64,000 nucleotides of DNA from Gallionellaceae bacterium (lineage in GTDB: Bacteria; Pseudomonadota; Gammaproteobacteria; Burkholderiales; Gallionellaceae), in the NCBI GenBank assembly GCA_030834965.1, contig JAUQWW010000009.1, positions 1 to 64,000 on the forward strand, read 5' to 3'. The notes beneath the pieces are model-generated. The model made no database searches. It worked only from the letters and a program-made list of their open reading frames with translations, and was not told where the DNA came from. Shown piece after piece: positions 14,163-35,160 of the stretch (positions are counted from its first letter, which is position 1; the number at the start of each line of letters is the position of its first letter). A program made the position numbers and the translations under genes.

Positions 14163-14218
14163 TTGTTGCAGGGTTAAGAAGTATTTTTCTGATGTGAATT
14201 TTTTAATGGAGGTTAGAG

Positions 14219-14695: not shown

Positions 14696-14768
14696 GAGCA
14701 GGCGCCCAGTGCCCCTGCTGATTTCCGGCGTGCAGCCGGTTCAACTTAATAAATAAGAGGTGAGTGCA

Positions 14769-16826: not shown

Positions 16827-16891
16827 CAGGTCGAAGCTGTTCAAGGCAGTTGCGCCGCCCTGAACAGGGAGCTAACGTTGGCGTAAAGCGC

Positions 16892-16929
16892 AAGCCGGGC
16901 ATCGCAGGGTGTCCGGCTTGTTTCTTGTT
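16892..16929 (+). terminator. Probable terminator after aprA
   Basis: A 7-bp stem AAGCCGG/CCGGCTT (16892-16898 with 16913-16919) with a 14-base loop is followed by a T-rich run (GTTTCTTGTT). It lies 66 bp beyond the aprA stop. The loop is large, so strength is uncertain. Confidence 0.5.
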
Positions 16930-17025
16930 GAAGCTTGTTCTGGATTTAGACAGCACCCCTTCGTGGTATGCGTTTAAAATACAAATTCCCTGTCCTTTAC
17001 ATGGGACGTTCGATAAGGTGCAGCG

Positions 17026-17916: not shown

Positions 17917-18120
17917 GGGTTCGAGCTTAGCCTGACGCAAGTTGTTCGAATGCCGGCTTACGCTGTCGGCACTTTGCGGAAAGTTGTGCGCTGCAAATAG
18001 ACTGTAGTTATCCTGGCTGCTGAACTGCACTCCGGATTGTGGGCATCTGTATGGAGGTGCAGGCAAGGAAATGCCTGCAGGTTATTTTCTACTTTGCAGA
18101 AAACCGGACATTTCTATTTG

Positions 18121-18527
18121 GTGTTGACACTGCCGGGCAAAAGCTCGCGACACACCGGGAAAAGACTCGTTGCCAAACTGCTGCAACAGCGTTACTCTAA
18201 ATCTGTTGCAGTGCAATTGGCAGACAGCGAACTGCAGCTTGATCCCGCATCAGAGAATCTGACACTGTGCCTACGCTGTATTGGTGTGAGCGGAGTGCGC
18301 AGTTTGTTGTGTGCAAAGTGGCCGCCAGCCGGTACCGTTGCCAGTTTTTCTATTCCGAGAAAGAGCAATACGGCACTGGCCGCGCCGAATACGATGATCT
18401 CGAAAATTGTGTCATGACTTTGTTGCATGTGCAGTCAGACTACGAGCGCCAGTCATCCCTGATTTCCATTTCAGTGACTGCCGCCGGATTGGCAGAAGGC
18501 GAGTATCGCGGACCGGTTATAGTCTGA
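18121..18527 (+). pseudogene. Frameshifted unknown gene, paralogue of the fragment at 29.5-29.7 kb
   Basis: A reading frame coding ...GKRLVAKLLQQRYSKSVAVQ, LADSELQLD and PASENLTLC runs to about 18270. The protein sense then continues one frame over as PTLYWCERSAQFVVCKV, SRYRCQFFYSEKEQYGTGR and AEYDDLENCVMTLLHVQSD to the stop at 18525-18527. Read together they give a compact protein of about 130 residues, broken by one frameshift near 18265. The segment RY-K-V-QLADSELQLD recurs at 29.54-29.66 kb, so this is a real family with two local copies. No ATG fits the first frame; a GTG at 18121 gives about the same N-terminal length as the other copy. Function unknown. A sequencing error could mimic the frameshift. 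Confidence 0.55.
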
Positions 18528-18612
18528 GGCACGGGGAGTTTTTATGGCCCGGCCTTGCGGCCGGAAGATTGTGTGGATGTATCCGCTGTGTTTTTTACTT
18601 TGGAGATTTATC

Positions 18613-18924
18613 ATGAAACTGAAAATGGCTGTTACTGCTGTAGCTGGCTTGCTAATCGCTTTTTCCATGACCACTTACGCGTCGGGCAACGCTGCCGAAG
18701 GTAAAACCAAAGCTGCCCAATGCGCGACTTGCCATGGTGCAGAAGGTAATGGGGGCGGCCCTAACCCTCCGGTCGTTAACCTGGATGCAGCCAGGTTTAC
18801 TGCGGCGATGAATGATTACAAGAGTGGCAAGCGCAACCACCCGATTATGACAATGTTGGCAAAGAAGTTAAGCGACCAGGATGTGGCTGATCTGGCCGCC
18901 TACTATGCCGGGTTGAAGAAGTAG
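18613..18924 (+). CDS. Small class I c-type cytochrome
   Basis: A 103-residue periplasmic monoheme cytochrome. The signal peptide MKLKMAVTAVAGLLIAFSMT ends near TYASG. One heme motif, CATCH, is followed by the class I pattern, and a C-terminal helix DQDVADLAAYYAGLK packs against the heme as in cytochromes c553/c4-half domains. TGGAGA sits nine bases before the ATG at 18613; the longer upstream frame is not signal-like. It resembles the FccA-like cytochrome 0.6 kb downstream and the repeated domains of the tetraheme lipoprotein at 24.9 kb. It probably carries electrons between periplasmic sulfur enzymes and terminal oxidases. Confidence 0.88.
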   Translation: MKLKMAVTAVAGLLIAFSMTTYASGNAAEGKTKAAQCATCHGAEGNGGGPNPPVVNLDAARFTAAMNDYKSGKRNHPIMTMLAKKLSDQDVADLAAYYAGLKK

Positions 18925-19493
18925 CAGTGATGGTGCCGGGCTGGATGGTTCAATATCAGCCCCGCTTTGCCTGCCGGGCTTGTTGCATCGGTCGCAACAC
19001 ATTCGGGAATTGTAGCGGCGCCATTGCACAATTTCCCGGCATCAGTGCCGTTTGACATCACTGGTGTCCAGTTAAAAACCGAACAAATTTAGGGCGCCTC
19101 TATAAATCGTATTTTTATCACGCCAGTTGTTCCGTATTTCCGATTTTTCGCTGGAATTTCTCAGCCAAATTTTTCTTTGGCTCAAATTGGCCGATTTCAA
19201 GCCGTTAATCCGAGTGTTTTCCGCCGCTTTCGCAGCATTTTCGCTACTGCGGACGCACCTATCCTGTCATCTTCATATCGCGCTTGAGCAGATGCACCAA
19301 ACGTATAACCCCAATGGGTACCTGCATCTAACCCCAATGGGTACTTGTATCCTCGGCTTGAACAGGCGTAGCCTTTACTCAATTGTTCTGACATAGTTAT
19401 TTTTTGTGGCGCACCATCTTGATATTGTCATGTTTGCAGCGGTAAATCATTTCTGGTTGGAGCGGTAATTTTCGTTCATTACAGGAGGAGGTC
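18925..19493. other. Long intergenic region before fccAB, possible IS-end remnant
   Basis: 569 bp without a credible gene. The stretch from about 19090 (GGGCGCCTCTATAAATCG) to 19270 is AT-rich and unlike the flanking genes, and looks like the end of a degraded insertion sequence, though I cannot name the element or find a matching opposite end. The right part contains the exact tandem 16-mers at 19306-19344. Confidence 0.45.
19306..19344 (+). promoter_or_regulatory. Tandem identical palindromic sites upstream of fccAB
   Basis: TAACCCCAATGGGTAC occurs exactly twice, at 19306-19321 and 19329-19344, with starts 23 bp apart. Read on the minus strand each contains TACCCAT, a good NarL-type heptamer, facing GGGTTA. 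The pair lies 150-188 bp before the fccA start. The layout is the same as before tusA, sat and the qmo operon. Confidence 0.55.
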
Positions 19494-19802
19494 ATGAAAA
19501 AAACAACATCGGCAATATACATTTCGGGCTTGCTGGCGTTTTTCGCTGGGGCAGCCCAGGCGGCGGAAGACGTTGGCAGCCGCAATCTGGCGGCAGCGTG
19601 CGCAGCCTGCCACGGGACCAACGGTCACGCTGTGACCGGGATGTCGGCGCTGGCGGGTATGGACAAGGCTTATATGGTCAAGACCATGCAGGAATTTAAA
19701 ACGGGCAAGCGGCCTGCGACCGTGATGCACCAACTCGCCAAGGGTTATAGCGACGACCAGATCGGGCAAATCGCGGAATTCTTTGCCAAACAACAAAAAT
19801 AG
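19494..19802 (+). CDS. fccA: FccA-like monoheme cytochrome subunit of sulfide dehydrogenase
   Basis: A 102-residue periplasmic cytochrome with a signal peptide (ending GAAQAAED) and one CAACH heme motif. The C-terminal helix (DDQIGQIAEFFAKQQ) is typical of class I cytochromes. It lies 33 bp before the flavoprotein gene fccB, with a strong AGGAGG site, so the pair forms flavocytochrome c sulfide dehydrogenase, in which the heme subunit takes electrons from the FAD subunit. It is a one-heme form; some FccA proteins carry two hemes. The identity as FccA rests mainly on the fccB neighbour. Confidence 0.85.
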   Translation: MKKTTSAIYISGLLAFFAGAAQAAEDVGSRNLAAACAACHGTNGHAVTGMSALAGMDKAYMVKTMQEFKTGKRPATVMHQLAKGYSDDQIGQIAEFFAKQQK

Positions 19803-19835
19803 CGTTTGCCAACGCTTTCAAGAGGAGAAGAAATC

Positions 19836-21107
19836 ATGGAAAGGCGTGAATTTATCAAGTTGGCATCGGCTGCTGCTGCGCTGGCTGCGCTGCCCGGCTG
19901 TGCCACAAGCAGCGGCGGCAAAAGCATAGGCAGGGTGGTTGTAGTGGGTGGCGGGTACGCAGGTGCGGCCGCCGCGAAATATGTGCGCTTGTGGGCGCCG
20001 GACATCGAAGTGGTTCTGGTCGAGCGCGACGCCGACTTTGTTTCCTGCCCATTGAGCAACCGCGTGCTGTCTGGGGGGAAGAGCATAAAGGATTTGACTG
20101 TCAGCTACAGCAAGCTGGGGTCCAAATACGGTGTGCAAGTCGTGCATGACGAAGTGACTGCGGTGGATGCGGACAAGCGAACGATCACGCTCGCGCGCGG
20201 CAATACGATCAGCTATGACCGGCTGATTGTCGCGCCAGGCATAGATTTTATGTATGACGCCATAGCGGGCCTGAACAACGCAGACGCCCAGAAAAAAGTG
20301 CTGCATGCCTGGAAAGCCGGCCCGCAGACTGTAGCGCTGCGCAAACAGCTTGAGGCAATGCGGGATGGCGGCGTGTTTGCGATCTCGATTCCCAAAGCGC
20401 CCTTTCGTTGCCCCCCCGGCCCCTATGAGCGTGCCTGCTTGGCAGCTTTCTACCTTAAACAACACAAGCCCAAATCCAAGGTGCTCATCCTCGATGCCAA
20501 TGAGGATATCGTGGCGAAAAAAGGCCTGTTCACCAAGGCATGGAAGGACCTCTATCCCGGCATGGTGGAATACCGCGCCAACAGCGAACTGGTGGATGTG
20601 GATGCCAATACTCTTACAGCCAAGCTGCAGTTCGAGGATGTCAAGGCCGATGTGCTGAACGTGATCCCGCCACAGCGGGCCGGGAAAATCGCCACCAGCG
20701 CCGGCCTGATCACCGCCAACAATCGCTGGTGCGGGGTGGATTACCTGAGCTACGAATCGGTGGCGCAGAAAAACATCCACGTGCTGGGGGATGCGACTCT
20801 CGCCGCGCCCAAGATGCCCAAGTCTGGGCACATCGCGAACCAGCACGCCAAGGTATGCGCCGCCGCAGTGGTGGCGCTGATGCACGGCGGGGAAGTCTAC
20901 ACAGAGCCATTGATCGCCAACACCTGCTACAGCTACGTGAGTGATACGGAGGCAGTGCATGTTGCGGCCATCTTCAAATACGATGCCAATGGCAAAACCA
21001 TGGCCTCAGTACCGGACAGCGGTGGCCTGTCGAGCGCAGCCAGCGATATTGAGGGGATGTATGCAGAGGGGTGGGCACAGAATATCTGGGCAGATATGCT
21101 GGGGTGA
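19836..21107 (+). CDS. fccB: FccB, flavoprotein subunit of sulfide dehydrogenase
   Basis: A 423-residue FAD protein of the sulfide:quinone reductase/flavocytochrome c superfamily. The N-terminus carries a Tat signal (RREFIKLASAAAALAALPGC), so the folded protein is exported. The FAD-binding motif is VVVVGGGYAGAAAAKY, and the cysteines in FVSCPLSN and FRCPPGPYERAC lie where FccB has its active-site and structural cysteines. It oxidises sulfide to sulfane sulfur in the periplasm and passes electrons to FccA. The ATG at 19836 is chosen with an AGAGGAG site; a TTG ten codons upstream is in frame but weaker. Tandem palindromes upstream of fccA suggest coregulation with the other sulfur operons. Confidence 0.92.
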   Translation: MERREFIKLASAAAALAALPGCATSSGGKSIGRVVVVGGGYAGAAAAKYVRLWAPDIEVVLVERDADFVSCPLSNRVLSGGKSIKDLTVSYSKLGSKYGVQVVHDEVTAVDADKRTITLARGNTISYDRLIVAPGIDFMYDAIAGLNNADAQKKVLHAWKAGPQTVALRKQLEAMRDGGVFAISIPKAPFRCPPGPYERACLAAFYLKQHKPKSKVLILDANEDIVAKKGLFTKAWKDLYPGMVEYRANSELVDVDANTLTAKLQFEDVKADVLNVIPPQRAGKIATSAGLITANNRWCGVDYLSYESVAQKNIHVLGDATLAAPKMPKSGHIANQHAKVCAAAVVALMHGGEVYTEPLIANTCYSYVSDTEAVHVAAIFKYDANGKTMASVPDSGGLSSAASDIEGMYAEGWAQNIWADMLG

Positions 21108-21726: not shown

Positions 21727-22905
21727 ATGTCACCTGTCCTACAGTCTAATCGGTTCATGATACTTGCGGCCATCTTCTGCTTGGCTGGCTCGCTCGCCAC
21801 CTTCCGGACGGAAGCCGCAGCCAAAGAAGCAGATAGCAAGCATGAAATTTCCGCTCCACCGGCCAAGCTTAACAATGCAACCTGCCTAGTCTGCCACGAC
21901 GCAGGCAAGGGAGAATTGAAAACGACAGATGCCGATGGCAACCCGAAATCGCTACTTGGCCTTGATAACAACAAATTTAGCAAGAGTTTGCATGGAGAAA
22001 TGCAATGCATCGCTTGCCACCAGGATATTACAGATGCAGTTTCTCCACACAAGAAAGGCCCTGGACCGAAGGCCAATTGCGTATCGTGCCATCTGGAACT
22101 GTGGGAAACTGCCAAGAAGGAGAATCTGACCAAGGAAAAAGCGCGCTTGGAAGTGGTGGTAAACAATATCGAGTATTACAAGAATTCCTATCATGCACGG
22201 CCAAATCAGGATAACCCGGCGCGTCCCAATGCAGTCTGTGACGAGTGCCATCATAGCCATACCTTCAATGTCCCACCTTCTGGCACTTCCAGGCGTACGG
22301 ATTGGCACTTGAGCATTCCTAACGTTTGCGGAGAAAAGTGCCACGCCGATCAGCTTGAAGAATATGCAACTTCAGTCCATGGCAAGGAGGTTCTGGAAAA
22401 TCGCAACCTGAAAGCCGCTGATTGCACCGATTGCCACACTTCTCATGGCATCACTGCCACGCTAAAGGATGCGTTCAAGGTTTCCGTAACCGAGAACTGT
22501 GGGGGTTGCCACGGCAAAAACCTGACATCCTACCGCGACACCTATCATGGGCAGGTCAACAAACTGGGATATGGCCACACCGCCAAGTGTTATGACTGCC
22601 ATGGCAGCCACGGCGTGCTAAGGCCATCTGACCCAAAATCTACGGTCCATCCGGATAATCGCCTTAAAACTTGCCAGAAATGCCATAAGGAAGCAACTCA
22701 AGGATTTACGACGTTCGAACCGCACGCCAACACTCATGATTTTGAACGGTACCCGCAATCCTGGCTGGTGTCGAGATTCATGTGGGGCCTGCTGGCGTTT
22801 GTGTTTACATTCTTCTGGCTGCATACCGGATTGTGGTGGTATCGCGAAGCTAAAGACTCCAAGGCACGCAAAAACCACCCGGAAAATCGAGGGGATACAA
22901 AATGA
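21727..22905 (+). CDS. Membrane-anchored multiheme cytochrome c with nine heme motifs
   Basis: A 392-residue periplasmic cytochrome with a signal peptide (cleavage near TEAAAKEA) and one C-terminal transmembrane helix at about 349-371 that leaves a short charged cytoplasmic tail. Eight CXXCH motifs begin at Cys53, 94, 118, 171, 233, 258, 288 and 316. A ninth, CGEKCH at 201-206, has three residues between the cysteines (CX3CH). Its stop overlaps the cytochrome b start as ATGA, so the two are translated together and probably form one complex that moves electrons between the quinone pool and periplasmic partners. I cannot assign a substrate; relationship to tetrathionate or nitrite reductases is possible but unproven. 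Confidence 0.85.
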   Translation: MSPVLQSNRFMILAAIFCLAGSLATFRTEAAAKEADSKHEISAPPAKLNNATCLVCHDAGKGELKTTDADGNPKSLLGLDNNKFSKSLHGEMQCIACHQDITDAVSPHKKGPGPKANCVSCHLELWETAKKENLTKEKARLEVVVNNIEYYKNSYHARPNQDNPARPNAVCDECHHSHTFNVPPSGTSRRTDWHLSIPNVCGEKCHADQLEEYATSVHGKEVLENRNLKAADCTDCHTSHGITATLKDAFKVSVTENCGGCHGKNLTSYRDTYHGQVNKLGYGHTAKCYDCHGSHGVLRPSDPKSTVHPDNRLKTCQKCHKEATQGFTTFEPHANTHDFERYPQSWLVSRFMWGLLAFVFTFFWLHTGLWWYREAKDSKARKNHPENRGDTK

Positions 22906-23765
22906 CACATCGAATTACAGATGAATTGCCGCAATTTCGTGGCAAACAGGTACGGCGTTTCGGGCTCATGTGGCGGATAGGGCACTTGTGCTTTGCGTTG
23001 AGTGTCATGATGCTGATCCTGACCGGCATGACTGTGTTTTATGCCGATACCACCTGGGCTCCTATCGTCATGAAGGCTCTCGGCGGACCCAAAACAGCGG
23101 GCATTATCCACCGCACCTGCGCGGCAATCATGCTGGGAATATTCTTCCTGCACCTTGTTGGTGTGTCTATCAACATTTCGCGCAGCTGGAAAACCTTCAA
23201 ATGGTTTGGCCCCGACTCTCTGGTGCCGAATTGGCAGGATTTCAAGGATGTTTACGGAATGTTCCGTTGGTTCCTCGGCAAGGGGCCGCGCCCGGTTTTT
23301 GACCGATGGGCATACTGGGAAAAATTCGACTACTGGGCGGTATTCTGGGGGATGGGGATCATCGGCAGCACCGGCATACTGCTGACATTTCCGAATGAAA
23401 CCGCATCAATCCTTCCTGGGTGGGTTTTTAATGTTGCCACCATCGTACATGGAGAGGAAGCTTTTCTGGCTGCCGTATTCCTGTTCACAGTGCACTTTTT
23501 CAACAACCATTTCAGGCCGGATAAATTGCCTCCACCAGACATAGTGATGTTTACCGGCTCGGTCCCGCTGGAAGAATTCAAGCGCGAGCACTCGGCACAA
23601 TATGCCCGCTTGGTGGAAACAGGGCAGCTTGAAAAGCACCTGGTGAAGGTGCCGTCACGTGCGCTGACACTGGGCTCCAAGATATTGGGCCTTGTCCTGA
23701 TCACAATCGGGTTGTCTTTGCTGGTAATATTAACAATAGGATTCGTAGGCGCTTCAACAAGATGA
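22902..23765 (+). CDS. Cytochrome b subunit (b561/formate dehydrogenase gamma-like)
   Basis: A 287-residue membrane protein with four main hydrophobic segments (about 25-48, 65-90, 145-165 and 180-205) plus a C-terminal helix at about 255-280. Histidines suited for b-type heme binding lie in RIGHLCF, GIIHRTC, FFLHLVG and VHFFNNHF. The pattern fits the di-heme cytochrome b subunits of hydrogenases and formate dehydrogenases. It overlaps the multiheme cytochrome gene by 4 bp and is followed by a small cytochrome c, forming a three-gene quinone-linked cytochrome module. No catalytic subunit is encoded next to it, so the module may act as an electron conduit. Confidence 0.82.
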   Translation: MTHRITDELPQFRGKQVRRFGLMWRIGHLCFALSVMMLILTGMTVFYADTTWAPIVMKALGGPKTAGIIHRTCAAIMLGIFFLHLVGVSINISRSWKTFKWFGPDSLVPNWQDFKDVYGMFRWFLGKGPRPVFDRWAYWEKFDYWAVFWGMGIIGSTGILLTFPNETASILPGWVFNVATIVHGEEAFLAAVFLFTVHFFNNHFRPDKLPPPDIVMFTGSVPLEEFKREHSAQYARLVETGQLEKHLVKVPSRALTLGSKILGLVLITIGLSLLVILTIGFVGASTR

Positions 23766-23815
23766 TAGCCAACGAAAAAAGCACTCATTAACTTAACAAT
23801 ATGAAAGGAAATGAA

Positions 23816-24160
23816 ATGAAATCTCACATAATCGCAGGTATGTTGCTGGCAGTTTCTGCAACTGTTTCAATGAGCCCAGCATCTGCAGCCGGCATTGATG
23901 CCGAAGCCGCCAAAAAATTGGCCAAGGCAAATTCTTGCTTGAATTGCCACGCAGTAGACAAATCAAAAATGGGGCCCTCCTACAAAAAAATAGCAGCCAA
24001 ATACAAAGGCAATGCCGGTGCGGAAGGCATTCTCATCAAGCAGATTACCACTGCTCCCAAATTCAAACTTGATGATGGTACTGAAGCTACTCACACGGTC
24101 ATTGGCACAAAAGATCAGGGTGAAATAAAGAATCTGGTTGGCTGGATTCTCTCGCAGTAG
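23816..24160 (+). CDS. Small periplasmic cytochrome c (c551/c552-like)
   Basis: A 114-residue monoheme cytochrome with signal peptide (ending near SPASAAG), the heme motif CLNCH, and KMGPSYKKIAAKYKG after it, which is typical of c551/c552 and lysozyme-like ScyA proteins. The C-terminal EIKNLVGWILSQ helix is also typical, although the usual axial-Met segment is less clear here. AAGGAA lies about seven bases before the ATG at 23816, which I prefer over one five codons earlier. It is 50 bp downstream of the cytochrome b gene and likely in the same operon, as the soluble electron partner of the multiheme/b complex. Confidence 0.88.
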   Translation: MKSHIIAGMLLAVSATVSMSPASAAGIDAEAAKKLAKANSCLNCHAVDKSKMGPSYKKIAAKYKGNAGAEGILIKQITTAPKFKLDDGTEATHTVIGTKDQGEIKNLVGWILSQ

Positions 24161-24199
24161 TACTTCCTATTAACAATTACATAAATCATGACATGCGCT

Positions 24200-24284
24200 G
24201 TCATTCCCGCGAAGGCGGGAATCCAGCCATTACGAAAGTGCCTTTGGTTTAAACCCGTTGGATTCCCGCCTTCGCGGGAATAAC
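24200..24284. repeat. Second inverted pair of dRS3-like repeats
   Basis: Two arms with ATTCCC-N8-GGGAAT (24203-24222 and 24262-24281) face each other about 40 bp apart, in the gap after the c551-like cytochrome. The arms differ from the 5.9-kb pair by one internal base change (GCGAAGGC instead of GCGCAGGC). They may act as a hairpin terminator for the cytochrome operon. Confidence 0.8.
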
Positions 24285-24420
24285 GGGGTAAGGTGCATCT
24301 GACACTGTGTAAGTTATGGGTATCCGAGGAGTGTCTTCAATTATGTAATGCTCGATAAACCGGACGAGTCGGAGCCAAACAAGTAATGCAATGCCCCATC
24401 CGGACTGACGAGGAAAAATC

Positions 24421-24796
24421 ATGGAAACACAACTGGTAAATCGTTACGTGGCGAACATGCGCAGAGTGTTGTCGTGCTACGACCGCATTTTGATTACGGG
24501 CACGTTGCCTAGGGCGTGCTACGCCGGTGGCATGACCAGTTTTTTGTATAGCCGAGGCATCCGTATTTTTGACTATGCCCAGTTTGCGGAACCTTTGCGT
24601 GATCGTATTCGCGCACGTGCCCATTCCACCGTCGGCGTTGTCGCGCCAGCTTGCACGCCTGCGCATGTTGGGGTTGATCAAAAAAGTGGCTCATACCTAT
24701 CGCTACTACCTCACGCGCCTCGGTCGCAGCGCCATCGCCGCAGCTTGTTCAATCACCCGCTTCAACATCATTCCTGCCATGGCCGGAACACAATAA
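24421..24796 (+). pseudogene. Internally deleted remnant of a mobile-element-associated gene
   Basis: The ATG at 24421 follows a GAGG-like site and opens METQLVNRYVANMRRVLSCY, DRILITGTLPRACYAGGMTS, then FLYSRGIRIFDYAQFAEPL, ending near 24610. About 75 bases on, in another frame, the C-terminal part SALSRQLARLRMLGLIKKV, HTYRYYLTRLGRSAIAA and FNIIPAMA appears, ending near 24790. The second piece looks like a winged helix. I recognise both pieces as the two ends of one larger protein family found scattered in proteobacterial genomes, so the middle has been deleted. The family name is uncertain. Confidence 0.5.
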
Positions 24797-24931
24797 ATTC
24801 TTCTCAGAAAATGCGAAAACATAACTTGTTAGATCGGCCATACACCAGATTTGACTATATCTCTGGCCCTCATTCCACGATTGCTACAGAAATCAATACG
24901 TTTTTTCTCAATTTATCTAAGTGAGCACATT

Positions 24932-26077
24932 ATGAAATATCTTGCCCTAATCACCGCACTATTATCGCTGCTCATCGGTTGTTCGGATCGTCAAGCGTCG
25001 CAGGTCGCAGCGCCTGTAGTCGCGGCCGCCGACATCAACGCTGGCAAAGCCATTGCCGAGGCGCAATGCAAGGGATGCCACGGCCTCGATGGCCGTGCCG
25101 CCAACGACGAGATCCCCCACCTAGCCAAGCAGACAGAGAAGTATTTGTATGCTTCATTGCTTGCGTATAAGGAAGGCAAGCGTACCCATGCCGCACTCAG
25201 GGACATGGCAGCGCATATGAGTGATGCCGACATGCGCAATGTCGTCGCCTACTATGCGGGCTTGCCCGCGCTACCAGCCGCGCCAGGAGAAAAGGTGCCG
25301 GAGGTGGCCGTTTCCGACTACGAGAAAGGCAAAGTGGCCGCTGCCGCTTGCGTGACTTGTCATCAAGAGGCAGGCAACAGCAAGACGCCGGGCATGCCGA
25401 GCCTTGCCGGTCAGCATCCGGTTTATCTCATCGCCGCCATGCAGGCCTACAAGGGTGGCTCTCGCAACATGCCCGAGATGAAGGCTGCGCTCCACAAGCT
25501 GAATCAGACCGAGCTGGAAAACATCGCCTTGTACTATGCCCTGCAAACGCCGAAACAAGCCCCGGTGCCGACGGTCGGTGATGCGGTGGCCGGAGAGCCC
25601 TTGACGGCCAACTGCGGCGGTTGCCACGGCCTGAAGGGCGTCAGCACCGACCCGGCGGTTCCCAGCCTGGCGGGCCAAGACGCCCAGTATCTTAAGAGCG
25701 CAGCCAAGCTCTACAAGGATGGCGCACGTCGGCTTGAGGTCATGCATAAGGCGGTGGCCGCTGCCAGCGAAAAAGAGCTAGAGGATATCGCTGCTTTCTA
25801 TGCGATGCAGCAGCCGGCCGCGCCAAAGGTTGAGAAGACGGTATCGGTCCAGCAAGCAGTGGAAATATGCGACCACTGCCACGGCCCAGGCAACGATAAT
25901 CCCGCGATCATCATTCCGAAACTGGACGGCCAGAATAAAGGCTATCTCATCAAAGCGCTGCGCGAATATCGCGATGATCAGCGGCGCAGTTCGATGATGC
26001 ACAAAATGAGCATGTTCTACAATGATCCTATGATCGAACAAATTGCTACGGTATACGCCGGTCGGCCAAAGAGATAA
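24932..26077 (+). CDS. Tetraheme lipoprotein of four tandem class I cytochrome c domains
   Basis: A 381-residue protein with a lipoprotein signal (ALLSLLIGCSD) and four repeats of about 90 residues. Each has one heme motif: CKGCH, CVTCH, CGGCH and CDHCH, followed by a P-x-L/A-Q-YL segment, a Y-K-G/D-R-M segment and a closing helix ending in YAG, YAL or YAM. This is a doubled c4-type arrangement, likely attached to a membrane by lipid. The fourth repeat is closest to the frameshifted cytochrome at 21.2 kb. The start at 24932 is set by the lipoprotein signal; the ribosome binding site (GTGAG) is weak. It could store or relay electrons between the inner membrane and outer partners; the exact partner is unknown. 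Confidence 0.85.
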   Translation: MKYLALITALLSLLIGCSDRQASQVAAPVVAAADINAGKAIAEAQCKGCHGLDGRAANDEIPHLAKQTEKYLYASLLAYKEGKRTHAALRDMAAHMSDADMRNVVAYYAGLPALPAAPGEKVPEVAVSDYEKGKVAAAACVTCHQEAGNSKTPGMPSLAGQHPVYLIAAMQAYKGGSRNMPEMKAALHKLNQTELENIALYYALQTPKQAPVPTVGDAVAGEPLTANCGGCHGLKGVSTDPAVPSLAGQDAQYLKSAAKLYKDGARRLEVMHKAVAAASEKELEDIAAFYAMQQPAAPKVEKTVSVQQAVEICDHCHGPGNDNPAIIIPKLDGQNKGYLIKALREYRDDQRRSSMMHKMSMFYNDPMIEQIATVYAGRPKR

Positions 26078-26246
26078 GGCTGCCTTCAAGCGGCCTTGCG
26101 CCGCGGCATTTCCGGAAAACCCGGTGTACTCATATGCTGCCGGCAGAAGGGGACTGGTTACCTGAACGATGTCGTCAGTCGTAGGCCGTAAGGCAAACTC
26201 GATTTGAAATTGCGCTTCGCGCAATCCTGTTCCACTAACACACGGA

Positions 26247-26960
26247 GAAGATGATGAACTTGAAATAGCGGAATCCGTGTCGCATATGACCGTGCAGCGG
26301 ATTTAAAAAAACGAACTTAAACCTCACCTCAGCAAGTACTGGAAAATCCCGCCGGAAGGGAGTGCCGCATTTGTAGCGAATATGGAAGACGTGCTGGAGG
26401 TTTATCACCTGCCGTACGATCCCCGCTACCCCGTGGTTTGCATGGACGAATCGAGCAAGCAATTGATGGGCGAAGTCAGGGAGCCTGTCCCGTGCGCACC
26501 CGGCCGGATTGCGCGCATGGACGACGAATATGTCAGGAATAGCGTGGCGGAAATCTTCATGGAGGTGGAACCGTTGTCCGGCAAAAGACATGTTGCCATC
26601 ACGGAGCGCCGAACAAGAAAGGATTGGGCGCAGCAGATAAAGGAAATGCTCGATGAACACTACCCGCCCGAGGCTATCATCCGCGTGGTGTTGGACAATC
26701 ATTCGGCGCCCATCTCGAAAGAGACCATGGCCTATCTTGCAACTCGACCGAGACGCTTCGAATATGTTCATACGCCCAAACATGGCTCTTGGCTCAACCT
26801 GATCGAGTGCGCCTTCTCAAAGATGGCCAGAACCTTTCTGCGCCACATCCGGGTAGGCTCCATTGATGAACTGAAGACACGAATCCCCAAGGGTATCGAC
26901 GAGATCAACGCCTCACCTGTCGTGTTCCGCTGGAATAAGTTCGACCTCGGTGTAGATTAA
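26247..26960 (+). pseudogene. Chimeric, truncated IS630-family transposase
   Basis: The frame reads EDDELEIAESVSHMTVQRI, a TAA at 26304, then KNELKPHLSKYWKIPPEGS, MEDVLEVYHLPYDP and VCMDESSKQLMGEV, which belong to one IS630 subgroup (the MDE-SKQL type). From about LDEHYPPEAI onward (26648 on) it becomes VRVVLDNHSA-type sequence ending YVHTPKHGSWLNLIECAFS and WNKFDLGVD, from a second subgroup, and this part is nearly identical in DNA to the copy at 28 kb. So the gene is a hybrid of two IS630 types, with a premature stop and a missing N-terminus. It is not expected to be active. An aborted coding start lies upstream in 26078-26246, where I see no gene. Confidence 0.8.
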
Positions 26961-26992
26961 TGTGTAATTGTTTTAATGGAACGATCTACTAG
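26648..26992 (+). repeat. Direct repeat, copy 1 (IS630 3' part)
   Basis: 345 bp nearly identical to 27996-28341 (about 97 percent by eye, with one T difference in a run). It covers the 3' part of the transposase and the IS end, which finishes GGAACGATCTACTAG in both copies. The two copies are in the same orientation and bracket the membrane cytochrome gene at 27.0-27.8 kb. Confidence 0.9.
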
Positions 26993-27020
26993 AGATTCTT
27001 AAGCACGAGAGGAAAACATC

Positions 27021-27794
27021 ATGAAACCGATACCCCCCGATTTGGGCTGGATGAACTTGCCCAACCTGCCGACTCCGGTCAAGGCGCTTTTTGCCGGATA
27101 CCTGCTCGCAATCGGGCTGGGTTTATGCATGGCCGGCATGCAAATCATGCTGACGCACGGCATGGCGGATGGCAAGCTGGGCCTCTCGCTGGAAGATATC
27201 GTGTACAGCTATTACGGCGACCGCAGCGGGAGTACGATCGAGGGCAAGCTCAACGGTTCGATGAAAGAAATGGGAACACCGGAAGCGCGTCTCGACATCA
27301 TTAAATGGGTGCGCAACGGAGCGCCCGAGGCGGAGTGGGAGCCGCGCATCAAAGAAGTTTTCAAACAAAACTGCGCGATGTGCCATGGCGCCATGCCCAA
27401 CATACCCGACTTCGCCAAATATGAAAACGTCAAGAAGTTGGCCAAAACAAGCGATGGCGCCAGCGTTTCTACGCTGACCCGCGTGTCGCATATTCACCTG
27501 TTCGGGATCAGCTTCATCTTCTTTTTCGTGGGTTTCATTTTCAGCTTTGCGGCGGGTGTGCCAAGATGGCTGAAGGTGCTCGCAATCGTCACCCCCTTTG
27601 GTTTCCTGATCCTGGACATTCTTTCATGGTGGGTCACGAAATGGGTTCCGGGTTTTGCATGGCTCATCATCATCGGCGGCTTTGGCTACAGTGTGGCATC
27701 GGGGGTCATGTGGGTAATCAGCATGTACCAGATGCTTATCCTGTCGCGCAACGGGAAAGTCTACGGCAATGCATGGGAAGCTGACCTGAAATAA
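27021..27794 (+). CDS. Integral membrane monoheme cytochrome c
   Basis: A 257-residue protein with an N-terminal transmembrane helix (about 22-45), a soluble periplasmic stretch carrying one heme motif CAMCH at 118-122, and three further membrane helices (about 160-182, 187-205, 212-238). There is no separate signal peptide. AGAGGAAAAC gives a normal ribosome binding site. Similar proteins exist in many proteobacteria and are often misannotated; I do not know a proven function. It is flanked on both sides by directly repeated IS630 3' ends, so it could have been brought in or could be lost by recombination. The protein itself looks intact. Confidence 0.75.
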   Translation: MKPIPPDLGWMNLPNLPTPVKALFAGYLLAIGLGLCMAGMQIMLTHGMADGKLGLSLEDIVYSYYGDRSGSTIEGKLNGSMKEMGTPEARLDIIKWVRNGAPEAEWEPRIKEVFKQNCAMCHGAMPNIPDFAKYENVKKLAKTSDGASVSTLTRVSHIHLFGISFIFFFVGFIFSFAAGVPRWLKVLAIVTPFGFLILDILSWWVTKWVPGFAWLIIIGGFGYSVASGVMWVISMYQMLILSRNGKVYGNAWEADLK

Positions 27795-27819
27795 ATATAG
27801 CGCTAAGAAGGATAGGAAT

Positions 27820-28308
27820 TTCAACCGCAACCGCCCGCCCGTTCCGGGAAAATACTCAGCCGTTGGGCGCGACTACGAATATATCCGCCGTGGAACTGTG
27901 TCGATACTGGCCGGGATCGATCTACATTCTGGCCACATCTTTGCTAATGTGGAAGACCGCCATCGCAGCGTGGAGTTCATCGCGTTGCTCAAGCGGCTCG
28001 ATGAACACTACCCGCCAGAGGCTATCATCCGCGTGGTGTTGGACAATCATTCGGCGCACATCTCGAAAGAGACCATGGCCTATCTTGCAACTCGACCGGG
28101 ACGCTTCGAATATGTTCATACGCCCAAACATGGTTCTTGGCTCAACCTGATCGAGTGCGCCTTCTCAAAGATGGCCAGAACCTTTCTGCGCCACATCCGG
28201 GTAGGCTCCATTGATGAACTGAAGACACGAATCCTGAAGGGTATCGACGAGATCAACGCCTCACCCGTCGTGTACCGCTGGAATAAGTTCGACATCGGTG
28301 TGGCTTAA
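27820..28308 (+). pseudogene. IS630-family transposase, 5'-truncated
   Basis: A frame without its own start codes NRNRPPVPGKYSAVGRDYEY, RRGTVSILAGIDLHSGHIFA and EDRHRSVEFIALLKRLDEHY, then VVLDNHSAHISKETMAYLA and HTPKHGSWLNLIECAFSKM, ending KFDIGVA. These are the second and third catalytic regions of a DDE transposase of the IS630 family; the first third of the protein is missing. The 3' end (28341) lies inside an IS91-family transposase gene, so the element inserted there, at a TA as expected for IS630. Confidence 0.85.
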
Positions 28309-28341
28309 TGTGTAATTGTTTTTAATGGAACGATCTACTAG
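27996..28341 (+). repeat. Direct repeat, copy 2 (IS630 3' part)
   Basis: Second copy of the repeat at 26648-26992, in the same orientation. Recombination between the copies would delete about 1.35 kb, including the membrane cytochrome gene. Confidence 0.9.
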
Positions 28342-28706
28342 TTGTTCCATCAGATGTTCGGCATCCAGTTGTTGCAGATGTTCCAGTGCGAAGGGTGGGC
28401 GGGCGCAATAGCGCAGCAGGCGCTCTAGCCCCGGTCGGTCGCTGCCCTCGATACACACAGAGGCATCCACTGAAAAACCGCCGCCGTGTACCCAGCTTCC
28501 CATCTCCTCGCCATTGCTCTTTCCGATCAGGCCGCGACGGACGAAGGCGCTGACAATGCGCCGCCGCACCATGGCTTGCACACATCGGCAAGCACTGCCG
28601 CATCAAGCCCGGATGCCGCATGAAAAACCGCACCTGTCGCTTAGTTGGCTGCAGGCTCGAATACCCCATCGATGATGCAGCAATGGAAGTGGACGTGTTT
28701 GTTGTA
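28342..28706 (-). pseudogene. IS91-family (Y2) transposase fragment
   Basis: Read on the minus strand, HVHFHCCIIDGVFEPA is followed by a [19 protein letters not shown], and after a frameshift [34 protein letters not shown] and [20 protein letters not shown]. These are unmistakable parts of IS91/IS801-type transposases; the HVHFHCC segment is near the rolling-circle metal site. Both ends are missing: the left end is cut by the IS630 remnant, and the right end stops just before hemG. Confidence 0.85.
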
Positions 28707-28712
28707 CCTTCT

Positions 28713-29237
28713 CTACATTCTGCCAACTTGTCTCCCAAAATCCTCGACCTGTTTCCAATCGGTGAATTCATAGACGTTTCTCGTATCCGTCGGCCCTTTG
28801 GTCATCCACATGATCAATCGAATCATCATGCGATCGAAGAATTGATAGCTGGGATAGTTGAGCTTGCCTGCGAAGACTGCCAGATGTTTCGGCTTCCACA
28901 CGATCTGCTTCAAGAATTTCTGCAAGTAGGGATTAGTTTCCGGCGTGGTCTTTTCCGGTTTGCGCGCAACGACGTTCACTGAAAAGAATGCGTTGGCTTT
29001 GCTGTCCAGAATCTGGGCGTTCTGATTGACGAACTTTATGACCCGAGGATTGTGTTTGCCATAGCGGATGCTGGCACCGATCACAATCGTGTCGAATGCT
29101 AACAAGTCATTTGCTGTGCACTCCACAAGCGGCAAAAGCGTGACCCGATGAGGCGACTCGATCACGGCTTGCATCCGCAGACATATCTCTTTTGTATGTC
29201 CGTCGGTCGTTGAATAAGCGATAAGTATGTTTGCCAT
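28713..29237 (-). CDS. hemG: HemG-type protoporphyrinogen oxidase (flavodoxin-like)
   Basis: A 174-residue flavodoxin-fold protein. The FMN phosphate loop is YSTTDGHTKEI near the N-terminus, IVIGASIRYGKHNP forms the second FMN loop, and a middle insert with KPEKTTPETNPYLQKFL is the long-chain insert that marks HemG rather than plain flavodoxins. It oxidises protoporphyrinogen IX to protoporphyrin IX, passing electrons to quinone, and so supports heme supply for the many cytochromes here. The ATG at 29237 is chosen from homology; upstream frame is not protein-like. It sits between mobile-element debris on both sides but appears intact. Confidence 0.85.
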   Translation of the reverse strand: MANILIAYSTTDGHTKEICLRMQAVIESPHRVTLLPLVECTANDLLAFDTIVIGASIRYGKHNPRVIKFVNQNAQILDSKANAFFSVNVVARKPEKTTPETNPYLQKFLKQIVWKPKHLAVFAGKLNYPSYQFFDRMMIRLIMWMTKGPTDTRNVYEFTDWKQVEDFGRQVGRM

Positions 29238-30097: not shown

Positions 30098-31015
30098 TCA
30101 TTTCTTTGCCGGTGCAGGCTTGTCTGCAATTTCCTGCAATTTCGTCGGTTGGATGATGTGTCCATCCAGCCCGGCTTCCTTGGTGCTGCCGCCATAGGCG
30201 ACCGTCATCAGCTGGCTGTAATAAGTAACCGGCATGGCCAGTTTGGTGCCGTATTTTTTGTTGATTTCAGATTGATAGACTTCAACGTTTGCCTGGCATA
30301 GCGGGCAAGGCGTGACGATCATGTCTGCTTTCTGGTCATAGGCCGATTCGACGATGTCCTTGATCTGCTTCTGGCTCTTTTCAGTTTCGGAGAAAGCCAG
30401 CGCGCCTCCACAGCAGGTCACTTTCTGTTCGTATTGGGTGGCTGCCTCGCCGCCGACCGTTTCCACCAGCTTGTCGAGATACAGCGGGTTCTCGAATGAT
30501 TCGCCAGCAATGCCGAAGGGGCGATTGGTCTGGCACCCGACATAGCCCGCAAACTTGATGCCTTCCAATGGTTTTACGACGGGCTTGCCCAGCTCTGCAT
30601 AGCCGAAATCTTCGATCAGTACTTCGACCATGTGGCGCACGGGTGTCTTGCCCTGATATTGCAAGCCTGCTTCCTTGAGCGCCTCGTTGGCGTCGGCCCG
30701 CAACTGTGCATTGGTATCAAGCTTTTCTTTCGATTCACGCGCACCCAGCCAGCAGGCGGCGCAGGTGGCCACCATGTCCTGACCCGGCAGGTGTGTCTCG
30801 GAGAGGGCAAAGTTGCGCGCATTCAACACCAGCCGGGACAGTTCGCTGCCGCCTGCGTAGCTGATGGAAGCGCCGCAGCAGTTCCAGTCAGGAATCGGGG
30901 TCAGCTTGATGTCCAGCGTCTTGCACATGGAGCTGGTCGACACCAGATAGTTGGCGGCGGAAGCCTTCAACTGCGAGGAGCAGCCGGGGTAAAAAGCATA
31001 TTCTTTCTTGGCCAT
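30098..31015 (-). CDS. hdrB: HdrB-like subunit of the Qmo/Hdr complex
   Basis: A 305-residue protein with two CCG domains: the first runs from FYPGC to DWNCCGAS and CAACW, the second from VGCQTNRP to TCCGGALAF and CPLC. In HdrB of heterodisulfide reductase these cysteines bind unusual [4Fe-4S] clusters that cleave or form disulfides. It follows hdrC by 14 bp. In combination with QmoA and QmoB it stands where QmoC normally occurs, an arrangement known from Gram-positive sulfate reducers. The C-terminal tail (KPAPAKK) is low complexity. In this oxidative setting it probably helps take electrons from APS reductase. Confidence 0.9.
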   Translation of the reverse strand: MAKKEYAFYPGCSSQLKASAANYLVSTSSMCKTLDIKLTPIPDWNCCGASISYAGGSELSRLVLNARNFALSETHLPGQDMVATCAACWLGARESKEKLDTNAQLRADANEALKEAGLQYQGKTPVRHMVEVLIEDFGYAELGKPVVKPLEGIKFAGYVGCQTNRPFGIAGESFENPLYLDKLVETVGGEAATQYEQKVTCCGGALAFSETEKSQKQIKDIVESAYDQKADMIVTPCPLCQANVEVYQSEINKKYGTKLAMPVTYYSQLMTVAYGGSTKEAGLDGHIIQPTKLQEIADKPAPAKK

Positions 31016-31029
31016 GATCAGGAGTCTCC

Positions 31030-31653
31030 TCAGTGGGTCGAGTGCTTGCGCCGCGCTTCGATTTCGGCCGCCTTTTTCAGCATGGCCTGGATGCCTTGCT
31101 GGTCCTTGCAGCTGTGGCCTTTGAACAGTTCGAACGGGTTCAGGCGTCCGGCTTTCAGCAGGCCCAGGCCGATATTGCGCATCGCCCACCCTTTCTTGAT
31201 GCCTGCCATCAGGCCATCGTTGAAATACAGGCCCAGGGTCAGGCGCAGCTCGTTGACGCGGCCGGTACGCGTGCAGTTCTTCCAGAACTGGAGCGAGAAG
31301 TCGCGCGTCGGCTGGATCTTTGGCGCCATGCCGAGCTTGTTGGCGTACGATGCAAGGCCGTGCATGATCCCGGTGATCGGGAGCTTGCGCGGACAGCGCA
31401 CCACGCAGTTGTAGCAGGAGGTGCACATCCACATCGAATCCGAACTGAGCACTGCCTCGCGCTTGCCCGCGCGTATCATCATGAACAGTTCCTGCGGGGG
31501 ATGCGCCCAGTGTGCGCCCAGCGGGCAGGAGCCGGAGCACACGCCGCACTGCATGCACATCTTGACCCATTCGCCTTCTTCCACATTCTCCTCGACTTCC
31601 CTGAGGAAATTGTTGTGGTATTTTTCGGTGGTGCTTGTATTGAGTTCGCTCAT
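31030..31653 (-). CDS. hdrC: HdrC-like iron-sulfur subunit
   Basis: A 207-residue protein with two [4Fe-4S] ferredoxin motifs, CMQCGVCSGSC followed by CP, and CTSCYNCVVRC with CP, as in HdrC and the N-terminal part of QmoC. No membrane helices follow, unlike QmoC, so the gene is a soluble HdrC. The start at 31653 has GAGG five bases upstream and lies seven bases past the qmoB stop. It should link QmoB clusters to HdrB. Confidence 0.9.
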   Translation of the reverse strand: MSELNTSTTEKYHNNFLREVEENVEEGEWVKMCMQCGVCSGSCPLGAHWAHPPQELFMMIRAGKREAVLSSDSMWMCTSCYNCVVRCPRKLPITGIMHGLASYANKLGMAPKIQPTRDFSLQFWKNCTRTGRVNELRLTLGLYFNDGLMAGIKKGWAMRNIGLGLLKAGRLNPFELFKGHSCKDQQGIQAMLKKAAEIEARRKHSTH

Positions 31654-31660
31654 GTCGGCC

Positions 31661-33877
31661 TCACGCAAAACCTTTCATCGGGCTCATGCCAATTTCCTGG
31701 ATCTTGGCGACGTAGTCGTTGATAAGCTGCGGCACCCGCGCGATGTCGGTGATGGCGACCTCGAAGGATGCCACGCGCTCGGTTTCGAGGCCGAGCTGCT
31801 TCAGCGTATCGTCGATCTTGCTCATGCGGTAATTGGCGAGCTCAGAGCCTTTTACAAAGTGGCACTGGTAATCTTCGCCGTGTTTGCAACCCATCATCAT
31901 CACGCCATCCCAGCCGCCGTTCAGCGCGTCGGTGATCCACACCGTATTGACTGAGCCCAGGCAGCGCACCGGGATGATGCGTACAAACGCGCTGTAGACA
32001 TTGCGTTGCATGCCGGCCATGTCGATCGCCGGGTAGGCATCGTTCTCGCAGGCCAGCACCAGGATGCGCGGCTTTTCGGAGAACTCGTCCGGCATGTCAA
32101 CCGCCTTGATCTGGCTGCCGACAGAATCCGGCGAATAATTCTCGAACGAAATCACACGCACCGGGCAGGCGCCCATGCACGTGCCGCAGCGGCGGCAGCG
32201 CGATTCGTTGAATACCGGATAGCGTTTTTCGTCCTCGTCGATGGCGCCGAACGGGCATTCCACAGTGCAGCGCTTGCATTGGGTGCAACCCTCAAGACGT
32301 ACGATCGGAAACGACAGGTCGCCCGAGCGCGGGTGGGCGGCGCGGCCGAGAGAGGCGTTCTCCACTGCCTGGATGGCCTTCATCGCAGCGCCGGTGGCAT
32401 CTTCCATCGCCTGTGCGATGTCCATGGGGCGACGCACCGGGCCCGCTGCATAGATGCCAGTACGACGCGTCTCGTAAGGAAAGCAGATGAAATGGGAGTC
32501 GGTCAATCCGTGCTTCAGTTGCGGCAAATCCTTGCCCTGACGGTAGGTGAGATTCAGGATGGAAATCGGCTTGGTTTCTCCCTGCGCGGCTTCGGCCAGC
32601 TCGATGTTTACGCCGGAATTCGGAATCTGGCCGGTGGCGAGCACAACCAGGTCGGCCTGGATGCTGCTGTCCTCATTGAGGATCAGGTCTTTGAATTTTA
32701 TGTCGCAGGAATTGCCGCTGGTCACGACTTCCGAGGCCTTGCCCTTGGTGAAGGTCACTCCCTTGTTCTGGGCGCTGCGGTAGAAGTCTTCGCCCATGCC
32801 CGGCGTGCGCAGGTCGGTGTACATTACTACTGTATCGATGCCGGGGTTGGCATCCTTGAAATACATGGCTTGCTTGATGCTGGTATTGCAGCAGTGGCCG
32901 GAGCAATAGGGCAGGTGCTTGCCGGATTCGTCGCGCTGGCCGGCACACTGGATGAATGCCACGCTTTTGATTTCACCGCCATCGGAAGGCCGGCGTAATG
33001 CGCCACCCTGTCCGCCAGCTGCGACGAGCATACGCTCCAGTCCTGCCTGATCCACCACATTCTGGATCTTGCCGCCGCCCAGCTCGGGGAGCTTGTTGAT
33101 GTCGTAACTGGTGAAGCCGCTCGCCTGCACAATGGCGCCCACCTCCTCGGTGGTTGTGGCACCGCTCTCGGTGGCGATCTGCACCTGGAAGCGGCCCGGT
33201 GCGCCATCGGTCTGCGCAATGGTCGAGTTCAGGTACACCTTGATGCGCGAATGCTGGGTTACTTTGGCAATCAGTTCGGAGATGCCGGTGTCGACCGGAT
33301 CGGTGTAGGGCGATTTTGACGGCACGCGTTTCCATAGTTGACGCGCCCATCCACCCAGCTCGCCCTGTTTTTCTACGACGAGTACCTCATATCCGGCTTC
33401 CGCACTTTCCAGTGCGGCAGTAAGGCCGGAAACGCCGCCGCCGACCACGAGGATGCGCTTGTTTTGCGCCTTGTTCGGCGTGCCTTCCGGAAGCTTCATT
33501 TTCTTCACTTCGGCGCAGCCCATACGCACGTAATCGTCCGCCATGTCCTGTGTGACTTCCACCGCGGCCTCGATTTCCGGCTGGCTCCAGAGCACGCCTT
33601 CACGGATGTTTGCCCGTGCCATCGACACGGTCGGGAAATTGAACGCTTCGGTCTTGGCGCGGCGCGAACAGGCGGCAATCATGATATGGGTGACGGCTTC
33701 TTTCTCGATGTCGTCGCGTATCATCTGCACGCCTTCCGCGTTGCACAGGAAGGCATGCTCGCGCACGATTTGCATTTTCCCTTCCTTCTGCGCGATCTGC
33801 ACCATCTGTTTGGTATTCAGCCGGTCGCTGATGCCGCAACCCTGGCAGATGTAGGCCGCTGTTTTCATTTCGCTCAT
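31661..33877 (-). CDS. qmoB: QmoB, HdrA-like flavoprotein with ferredoxin and MvhD domains
   Basis: A 738-residue protein. It opens with YICQGCGISD, has a FAD motif ILVVGGGVSGLTAALESAEAG at about 150, two [4Fe-4S] motifs (CTQCKRCTVEC and CRRCGTCMGAC) near 565-610, and a C-terminal MvhD-like domain with IPVRCLGSVNT and MMMGCKHGEDYQCHF. This is the full QmoB layout. It overlaps the qmoA stop as ATGA. QmoB takes part in electron transfer between APS reductase and the quinone pool and could allow electron bifurcation or confurcation. The complex would be cytoplasmic unless an unlinked anchor exists. Confidence 0.93.
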   Translation of the reverse strand: MSEMKTAAYICQGCGISDRLNTKQMVQIAQKEGKMQIVREHAFLCNAEGVQMIRDDIEKEAVTHIMIAACSRRAKTEAFNFPTVSMARANIREGVLWSQPEIEAAVEVTQDMADDYVRMGCAEVKKMKLPEGTPNKAQNKRILVVGGGVSGLTAALESAEAGYEVLVVEKQGELGGWARQLWKRVPSKSPYTDPVDTGISELIAKVTQHSRIKVYLNSTIAQTDGAPGRFQVQIATESGATTTEEVGAIVQASGFTSYDINKLPELGGGKIQNVVDQAGLERMLVAAGGQGGALRRPSDGGEIKSVAFIQCAGQRDESGKHLPYCSGHCCNTSIKQAMYFKDANPGIDTVVMYTDLRTPGMGEDFYRSAQNKGVTFTKGKASEVVTSGNSCDIKFKDLILNEDSSIQADLVVLATGQIPNSGVNIELAEAAQGETKPISILNLTYRQGKDLPQLKHGLTDSHFICFPYETRRTGIYAAGPVRRPMDIAQAMEDATGAAMKAIQAVENASLGRAAHPRSGDLSFPIVRLEGCTQCKRCTVECPFGAIDEDEKRYPVFNESRCRRCGTCMGACPVRVISFENYSPDSVGSQIKAVDMPDEFSEKPRILVLACENDAYPAIDMAGMQRNVYSAFVRIIPVRCLGSVNTVWITDALNGGWDGVMMMGCKHGEDYQCHFVKGSELANYRMSKIDDTLKQLGLETERVASFEVAITDIARVPQLINDYVAKIQEIGMSPMKGFA

Positions 33878-35160
33878 GATGCCTCCGTGCTGGCCGATTT
33901 GTTGACAACCTGAATCGCGCGCAGTGCCGCCGCCGTCGCATGCTGCACCGAGCGATTGACATCGAGCGGGCCTGAGGCGCACCCTGCCCCGAAGATGCTA
34001 CCGCCGGGTGCAGACTCGAGGAATCCGCTGGAGTCCGCAATGATCTCGGCGGGAATGTCCACGCCCTTCACGGCAGGCTCCATGCCGATCGCGAGCACGA
34101 CCAGGTCGTGAACGTTTGCATAGCGGTGGTAGCCTTCTGTGTCGACGCCATGCAGCGTCAGATCGCCGCTGTTGCCATCCTGTGCGATGCGCGCCACCTT
34201 GGATTTGACAAAGCTGACGGTTGGATCGTTCTGGACCTTGAGATAGAAATCCTCGAAGCGGTCAATTGCGCGGATGTCGATGTAATAGATGGTGGATTTG
34301 CCGTCTGCGCCGTAAGCTTCGCGTACATATTGCGTCTGTTTGAGCGAGGCCATGCAGCAGATGCGCGAGCAGTGGCGCAGGTGGTTTTCGTCACGCGAGC
34401 CGGCACATTGTATAAAGGCGATATTTTTTGCTTCCTTGCCATCGGATGGGCGCAGGAGTTTCCCTCCGGTCGGGCCGTGCAGATCGGCCATGCGCTCGAA
34501 TTCCAGGCTGGTGATGACGTTGGGGTAGCGGTCGTAGCCATAGGGCTGGATCTTGGCTGCGTCATAAGGCTTCCATCCGGTTGCCCAGATTACCGCGCCA
34601 ACAGTCAGTTCGACCGCTTCCCGCTGCATGTTGAGGTCGATGGCGTCATATTTGCACGCAGCGCGAGCCGCATCGGCGTCAGCCGTGCCGATGGCGGAAG
34701 GGTCAAGCACGTAGCGCAGCGGATAGGCCATCTTGTGCGGCAGATAAGCCACCTTCATCTGGTTGAGGCCGTAGTTGTACGGATTGGGAATTTCCTTTGT
34801 CACGGCCTTGGCGCATTCGCCGCAGGCTGTGCAGTTTTCATTGATATAGCGCGGTGCGACGTTGAGGGTCACCGCATAGTTGCCGCGTGTACCGGAGATT
34901 TTCGATACTTCGGCCAGCGTCAGCACGCGCACATTGCGGTTGCCCTTGAGGCGGCGCAGGTTGATTTCGAGGCCGCAGATGGGATGGCACAGCTTGGGAA
35001 AGTAGCGGTACATCAGAGCGGTGCGCCCGCCCAGGGTCGGGCTTTTTTCCACCAGAATGACCTGCTTGCCGCATTCGGCGGCTTCCAGTGCGGCAGTCAT
35101 TCCGCTGATGCCGCCTCCCACAACCAGAATGGTCTGGCTCGTTGCGATTGGAGTTGCCAC
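33874..35160 (-). CDS. qmoA: QmoA, HdrA-like flavoprotein
   Basis: A 428-residue FAD protein of the HdrA family with TILVVGGGISGMTAALEAAE at the N-terminus. The segments YRYFPKLCHPICGLE and NENCTACGECAKAV include conserved cysteines, and CAGSRDENHLRHCSRICC carries the HdrA-type cysteine set that binds a [4Fe-4S] cluster. Length and order match QmoA. It begins 44 bp after the phosphodiesterase gene and overlaps qmoB, so the operon is phosphodiesterase-qmoA-qmoB-hdrC-hdrB-rhodanese. It serves as redox partner of AprBA, encoded about 17 kb away. Confidence 0.93.
   Translation of the reverse strand: MATPIATSQTILVVGGGISGMTAALEAAECGKQVILVEKSPTLGGRTALMYRYFPKLCHPICGLEINLRRLKGNRNVRVLTLAEVSKISGTRGNYAVTLNVAPRYINENCTACGECAKAVTKEIPNPYNYGLNQMKVAYLPHKMAYPLRYVLDPSAIGTADADAARAACKYDAIDLNMQREAVELTVGAVIWATGWKPYDAAKIQPYGYDRYPNVITSLEFERMADLHGPTGGKLLRPSDGKEAKNIAFIQCAGSRDENHLRHCSRICCMASLKQTQYVREAYGADGKSTIYYIDIRAIDRFEDFYLKVQNDPTVSFVKSKVARIAQDGNSGDLTLHGVDTEGYHRYANVHDLVVLAIGMEPAVKGVDIPAEIIADSSGFLESAPGGSIFGAGCASGPLDVNRSVQHATAAALRAIQVVNKSASTEAS

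Follow-up and report, generated by a model that had tools for sequence, protein, structure and literature searches.

The locus described here lies in the window, that is, the whole stretch of 64,000 nucleotides that was analysed, which is part of a contig of 107 kb; the draft genome has 3.07 Mb and is split into 104 contigs. It comprises an intact gene for a membrane protein, referred to below as MEM, between two remnants of IS630 insertion sequences, the first of which joins two subgroups of the family (types A and B). The features are the following (window coordinates, strand and, in brackets, the evidence):

26248..26647, + strand: internal fragment of a type A IS630 transposase gene, its left and right parts lost (DNA alignments with L168, from 26256, with L184, from 26248, and with the pieces L095, L096 and L098 of genome G013)
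26648..26658, + strand: crossover patch GCTCGATGAAC, common to the type A element L168 and to type B copy 2 (alignments)
26648..26992, + strand: copy 1, right end of a type B IS630 element, closing in the intact terminus GGAACGATCTACTAG (repeat, alignment, end-pattern search)
26993..27020, + strand: 28-nt spacer from the IS630 end to the ATG, with a ribosome-binding-like GAGAGGA inside (read from the sequence)
27021..27794, + strand: MEM, intact, encoding a membrane protein of 257 residues that contains a single CXXCH haem motif (open frame, profile search; membrane segments judged by eye)
27824..28341, + strand: copy 2, a type B IS630 element that has lost its left part and is reduced to the right-hand 518 nt, with the intact right terminus GGAACGATCTACTAG (profile, alignment, end pattern)
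28342..28593, - strand: partial Y2 (IS91-type) transposase gene, directly adjacent to the right terminus of copy 2 (PF04986, 28 bits against a cut-off of 20.9)

The two type B copies share a direct repeat (26648-26992 and 27996-28341) in the same orientation, with a start-to-start spacing of 1348, 97% identity (96.5% over 346 columns) and a longest exact run of 100 nt. The presence, spacing and identity of this repeat are those given in the initial annotation (about 97%); its right limit had to be moved to 26992, beyond the transposase stop, because the element terminus belongs to the repeat. Both repeat copies encode the right-hand part of an IS630 transposase, and the profile scores of the two window copies (NF033545, 130.4 and 113.3 bits, cut-off 100) confirm their membership of the IS630 family (IS630-Tc1-mariner), which they resemble in having a DDE transposase above the curated cut-off and termini at CTAG; they differ from it in that both are truncated and copy 1 joins two subgroups. 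The whole genome gave just three IS630 matches, of which only the two broken window copies exceed the family cut-off and the third is weak. As for the neighbouring Y2 fragment, the PF04986 match itself spans 28303-28593 and so overlaps copy 2 by 39 nt, the boundary being placed at 28341/28342 as deduced from the IS630 terminus; the genome holds no other PF04986 match (27.3 bits for this one in the genome-wide profile search).

Of six type B loci inspected, four (L167, L172, L173, L186) have CTAGTAG and CTACTAG at a distance of about 1.25 kb, and in the full-length element L100 of genome G092 the ends are imperfect inverted repeats of about 30 nt. The right terminus is exact in both window copies, with the inverted end and the insertion at TA within CTAG that are typical of the family, and both have lost the left one, so that the locus holds two exact right ends and no complete element. 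A 15-nt end pattern gave four matches in the window, two of which are these right ends, against a mean of 0.94 in shuffled sequences; the one left-end-like match in the window, at 24433, has 3 of 15 mismatches and is at chance level, as is the other match with three mismatches, at 42718. The DNA that follows the right ends is unlike (AGATTC vs. TTGTTC). Moreover, at positions where 12 type B relatives agree, copy 1 has private changes (alignment columns 64, 105 and 241) and so has copy 2 (column 280, and a one-base insertion at 325); therefore, neither copy was kept in repair. At several other sites differing between the copies the relatives carry either base, and the relative age of the copies is not fixed by these sites. 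Two side observations concern short repeats. Stretches of about 30-40 nt matching the type B right end occur in L009-L028 (several genomes of genus g8, and G002), and 15 of the 18 such loci rechecked showed no opposite end within 1.5 kb, the remaining 3 giving no match at a stricter score; these short matches would be solo ends or remnants of related elements. An inverted repeat at 24200-24284 of the window, with 26-nt arms 96% complementary and 33 nt apart, is perhaps REP-like or a small mobile repeat.

The reading of the first transposase as a fusion of two IS630 types, with LDEHYPPEA as the protein junction, is borne out by the alignments. Upstream of 26648 copy 1 aligns at the DNA level with natural type A elements, best with L168 over 26256-26666, after which the two diverge, and also with scattered type A pieces in G013; it matches type B only from 26648 on. 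Copy 2, in turn, aligns from about 27824 to its end with L100 (93% of residues over 157 aa; 84% of the DNA over the repeat). At the switch site the sequence is GCTCGATGAACGCTACCCG in type A (L168) and GCTCGATGAACACTACCCG in copy 2, and the crossover falls inside an 11-nt identical patch if L168 stands in for the parent, or in just 6 nt (GCTCGA) with the G013 piece, the parents compared being elements of other genomes and the patch length varying with the type A stand-in. Such a patch is shorter than the usual assembly k-mer. An assembler misjoin at the junction is unlikely, given the shortness of the patch and the limit of 100 nt on exact runs shared by the copies. The type A part of copy 1 also contains one TAA, at a place occupied by a run of A in type A relatives. 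Around this place (window 26280-26320), which 34 of the 38 type A loci surveyed below cover, the run counts eight A in 31 loci and seven in 3, and in 33 of the 34 the left part of the transposase lies in the same other reading frame with respect to the right part; copy 1 has two bases fewer than L168 here, plus a stop. The frame change in type A is probably a programmed frameshift, a mechanism known for the IS630 family according to PMC5009743.

The distribution of both types was surveyed by scanning the genome_contigs collection with the chimera, a scan that may omit the window's own and very near records. Relatives were encoded in 318 stretches, and each of the best 80 was scored separately against the left (A) half and the right (B) half. 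Type A accounts for 38 of these loci (66-93% in the A half and no more than 42% in the B half, for stretches of at least 50 residues) and type B for 42 (B half 74-93%, with no A-half match at the limit used). No hybrid was found among the best 80 of the 318, the part of the ranking in which a true hybrid would be expected; therefore, the fusion looks local. The closest type B loci at the DNA level, among the 42 compared, are L169 (91%) and L188 (90%), and the two window pieces are thus more alike (96.5%) than either is to the best of them. On plasmids, 574 records hold relatives of the chimera, with a best match of 60%.

The gene between the repeats is intact, as originally stated, with 257 codons open at 27021-27794. 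Its description as a cytochrome holds in part: there is one CXXCH motif, but the best Pfam cytochrome match reaches 18.1 bits against a cut-off of 27, so that the label rests on the motif. No Pfam or NCBIfam match over the cut-off was obtained for MEM, no relative among solved structures had an E-value under 0.2, the plasmid records gave one partial match, and a scan of 26000-28500 for promoters and terminators returned no more than in shuffled sequences. Relatives of MEM are present in 43 of the 100 genomes searched, the source genome included. The position of the best MEM match with respect to priA was compared in 40 genomes, G062, G083 and G094 being left out since they are outside the family, which the priA search covered. 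In 23 of the 40, MEM follows priA on the same strand at a distance of no more than 0.8 kb; by classes of identity to the window protein, this holds for 5 of 17 genomes in the closest class and for 12 of 15 and 6 of 8 in two more distant ones. In G018 and G004 priA and a glcD-like gene have MEM between them; in the source genome the two are direct neighbours on contig C70, separated by 53 nt and without MEM. MEM is thus missing from a position that it occupies in a good many of its relatives and has probably moved, and each border of its present position carries an IS630 scrap. Vertical descent agrees with the trees computed for MEM (30 rows) and for the priA end (24 rows), which do not fix the point at which the source-genome MEM joins. 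A second, distant MEM relative (38%) is found in the source genome (G000, C34:13319-17722, L274); it lies next to a gene for a hexahaem cytochrome, and nearby are a further hexahaem gene and a fusion of a multihaem cytochrome with cytochrome b.

The surroundings of MEM in the window form a cytochrome cluster, with an octahaem cytochrome (21727), a cytochrome b (22902), a cytochrome (23801), a 4-haem cytochrome (24929), MEM (27021) and a flavodoxin (28713-29237, PF12724). On both sides (12990-21107 and 30098-35160) it is flanked by what we take to be genes like sat, aprBA, that of a flavocytochrome c sulfide dehydrogenase subunit and qmoABC. The 4-haem cytochrome (24929-26074) has nine relatives with a near-full-length match (39-43% identity), and in seven of them MEM lies within about 1.6 kb. 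The order priA-MEM-glcD-4-haem cytochrome was found in six (G030, G039, G105, G130, G123, G146), the first four of which carry an octahaem cytochrome/cytochrome b fusion and a flavodoxin further on; in G157 the same genes are rearranged, with MEM beside the flavodoxin, and G127 and G196 have no MEM within the stretch examined around the 4-haem cytochrome. The recurring cluster (21727-29237 in the window; L266-L273) can be summarized as priA, MEM, a glcD-like gene, a 4-haem and a small cytochrome, an octahaem cytochrome/cytochrome b, fused in some relatives and split in the window, and a Flavodoxin_5 protein. At 12 loci of the closest MEM class the window neighbours are absent (matches of at least 35% identity), save for a rhodanese-like gene in one, and therefore the cluster companionship holds for the more distant MEM classes only. 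The idea of MEM as a relocated lone passenger was weakened by these comparisons, in which the homologues of its neighbours (24929-26074, 21727-23762, 23801-24157 and 28713-29237) cluster with MEM in relatives. Since they do so in 7 of 9 relatives, MEM is probably not foreign cargo. The IS630 scraps sit inside this cluster, the gene order of which varies among relatives, and IS630 may mark one cluster rearrangement.

In the light of these data, the layout is likely to consist of two decayed IS630 remnants that derive from separate type B insertions, trimmed on the left, and from a deletion joining type A to type B. Two type B elements would have inserted separately at CTAG sites, one 28 nt before MEM and the other beside, and probably in, an IS91-type transposase gene beyond MEM, and each would later have lost its left part. 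To the left of MEM a deletion would have joined type A to type B through the common patch of at most 11 nt, giving the chimera, and to the right another deletion would have left only 29 nt between the MEM stop codon and the second type B remnant. The starting points are established, i.e., the types, the junction, the intact right ends, the unlike flanks, the private damage in each copy and the fact that no convincing left end is present; the order of the events, and deletion as the joining step, we infer. Two separate left-cut insertions suffice because both right ends are perfect and the DNA that follows them differs. The identity of the two copies fits recent insertions of one element and, taken by itself, is also compatible with exchange.

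Other origins of the chimera have been considered. It is highly improbable that it represents a natural hybrid lineage of IS630: transposases of types A and B are both widespread, but none of the best 80 loci (of 318), where the full-length hybrid that would have spoken against a local fusion was sought, joins them, and copy 1 is itself left-truncated and broken. Gene conversion or crossing-over, by which a resident type A element recombining with copy 2 would have received the type B right half now seen in copy 1, is one form of the recombination or gene conversion between two IS630 types that had been suggested in the initial annotation. An exchange within the genome does predict copies closer to each other than to the best of the 42 type B loci (96.5% vs. 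91% for L169), but two recent insertions of one element explain this equally well. Moreover, the homogenised tract does not lie inside a longer homologous acceptor stretch: it passes the coding region and ends exactly at the element terminus, between unrelated flanks, a point at which a conversion tract between A and B would need to stop by chance, and both copies carry private damage. We consider exchange quite unlikely and, as an account of the locus, unsupported.

The neighbouring gene raises a related question, namely whether the two type B copies once acted as a compound unit that carried MEM from behind priA into its present locus. The frequent position of MEM behind priA (23 of 40 genomes), the bare priA-glcD junction in the source genome and the IS630 scraps at 28 and 29 nt from MEM, one per side, would agree with such a transfer, as would the occurrence in the priA-glcD gap of GACCTGAGATAA, which is similar to the MEM end GACCTGAAATAA. 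This last match, however, is weak: at best it covers 12 nt with one mismatch, and it was equalled by 137 of 20000 random 53-mers and by 489 of 20000 shuffles; with the MEM end of G018 it is at chance level (1508 of 20000 random sequences, 811 of 20000 shuffles), and a scar in the gap was rejected. Furthermore, a compound transposon has two insertion sequence copies with intact outer ends, and here the outer left end is missing; no convincing left end and no empty target site were found, and with the left outer end lost no outer target duplication is visible. Likely companions of MEM are also present here (4-haem and octahaem cytochromes, cytochrome b, flavodoxin), which makes a larger rearrangement as likely, and only 5 of the 17 closest relatives have MEM behind priA, so that MEM has gone from that place, or was never there, in other genomes too. 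For these reasons a compound unit is unlikely, and it is equally doubtful that IS630 actively lifted MEM from behind priA into a multihaem cytochrome cluster beside sulfur-oxidation genes, rewiring its expression. Mobilisation of the cytochrome segment, which had been anticipated, meets two exact right ends, two broken pieces and a sole left-end-like match (24433) at chance level, and movement of the segment as a unit is unsupported because the left ends are missing. Deletion of the 1348-bp segment, MEM included, by recombination between the repeats is plausible.

Chimeric insertion sequences have already been published, and the one in the window is a further example that concerns two IS630 subgroups. 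In Streptococcus equi and S. zooepidemicus a chimeric insertion sequence apparently arose by recombination of ISSeq3 and ISSeq5 (PMC2654543); the likeness lies in one insertion sequence apparently assembled from two different ones, the difference in the elements involved and in the truncation of the window chimera, truncated copies being omitted from the table of that paper. Ectopic recombination between insertion sequence copies is well documented as a source of deletions, duplications and inversions, as stated in PMC3004938; unlike those cases, the window repeats are end fragments of inactive elements, with no deletion product observed. Gene conversion has been reported among dead insertion sequence copies in Wolbachia, as cited in PMC3196728. 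The term "hybrid insertion sequence" was absent among the literature matches listed.

The IS630 remnants at MEM are ordinary genome wear. They provide a clean example of two insertion-sequence subgroups fused via a very short common patch, and a warning that an intact gene lying between two insertion sequence fragments is not necessarily cargo. Of wider relevance is the cytochrome cluster that recurs in the family, often next to priA.
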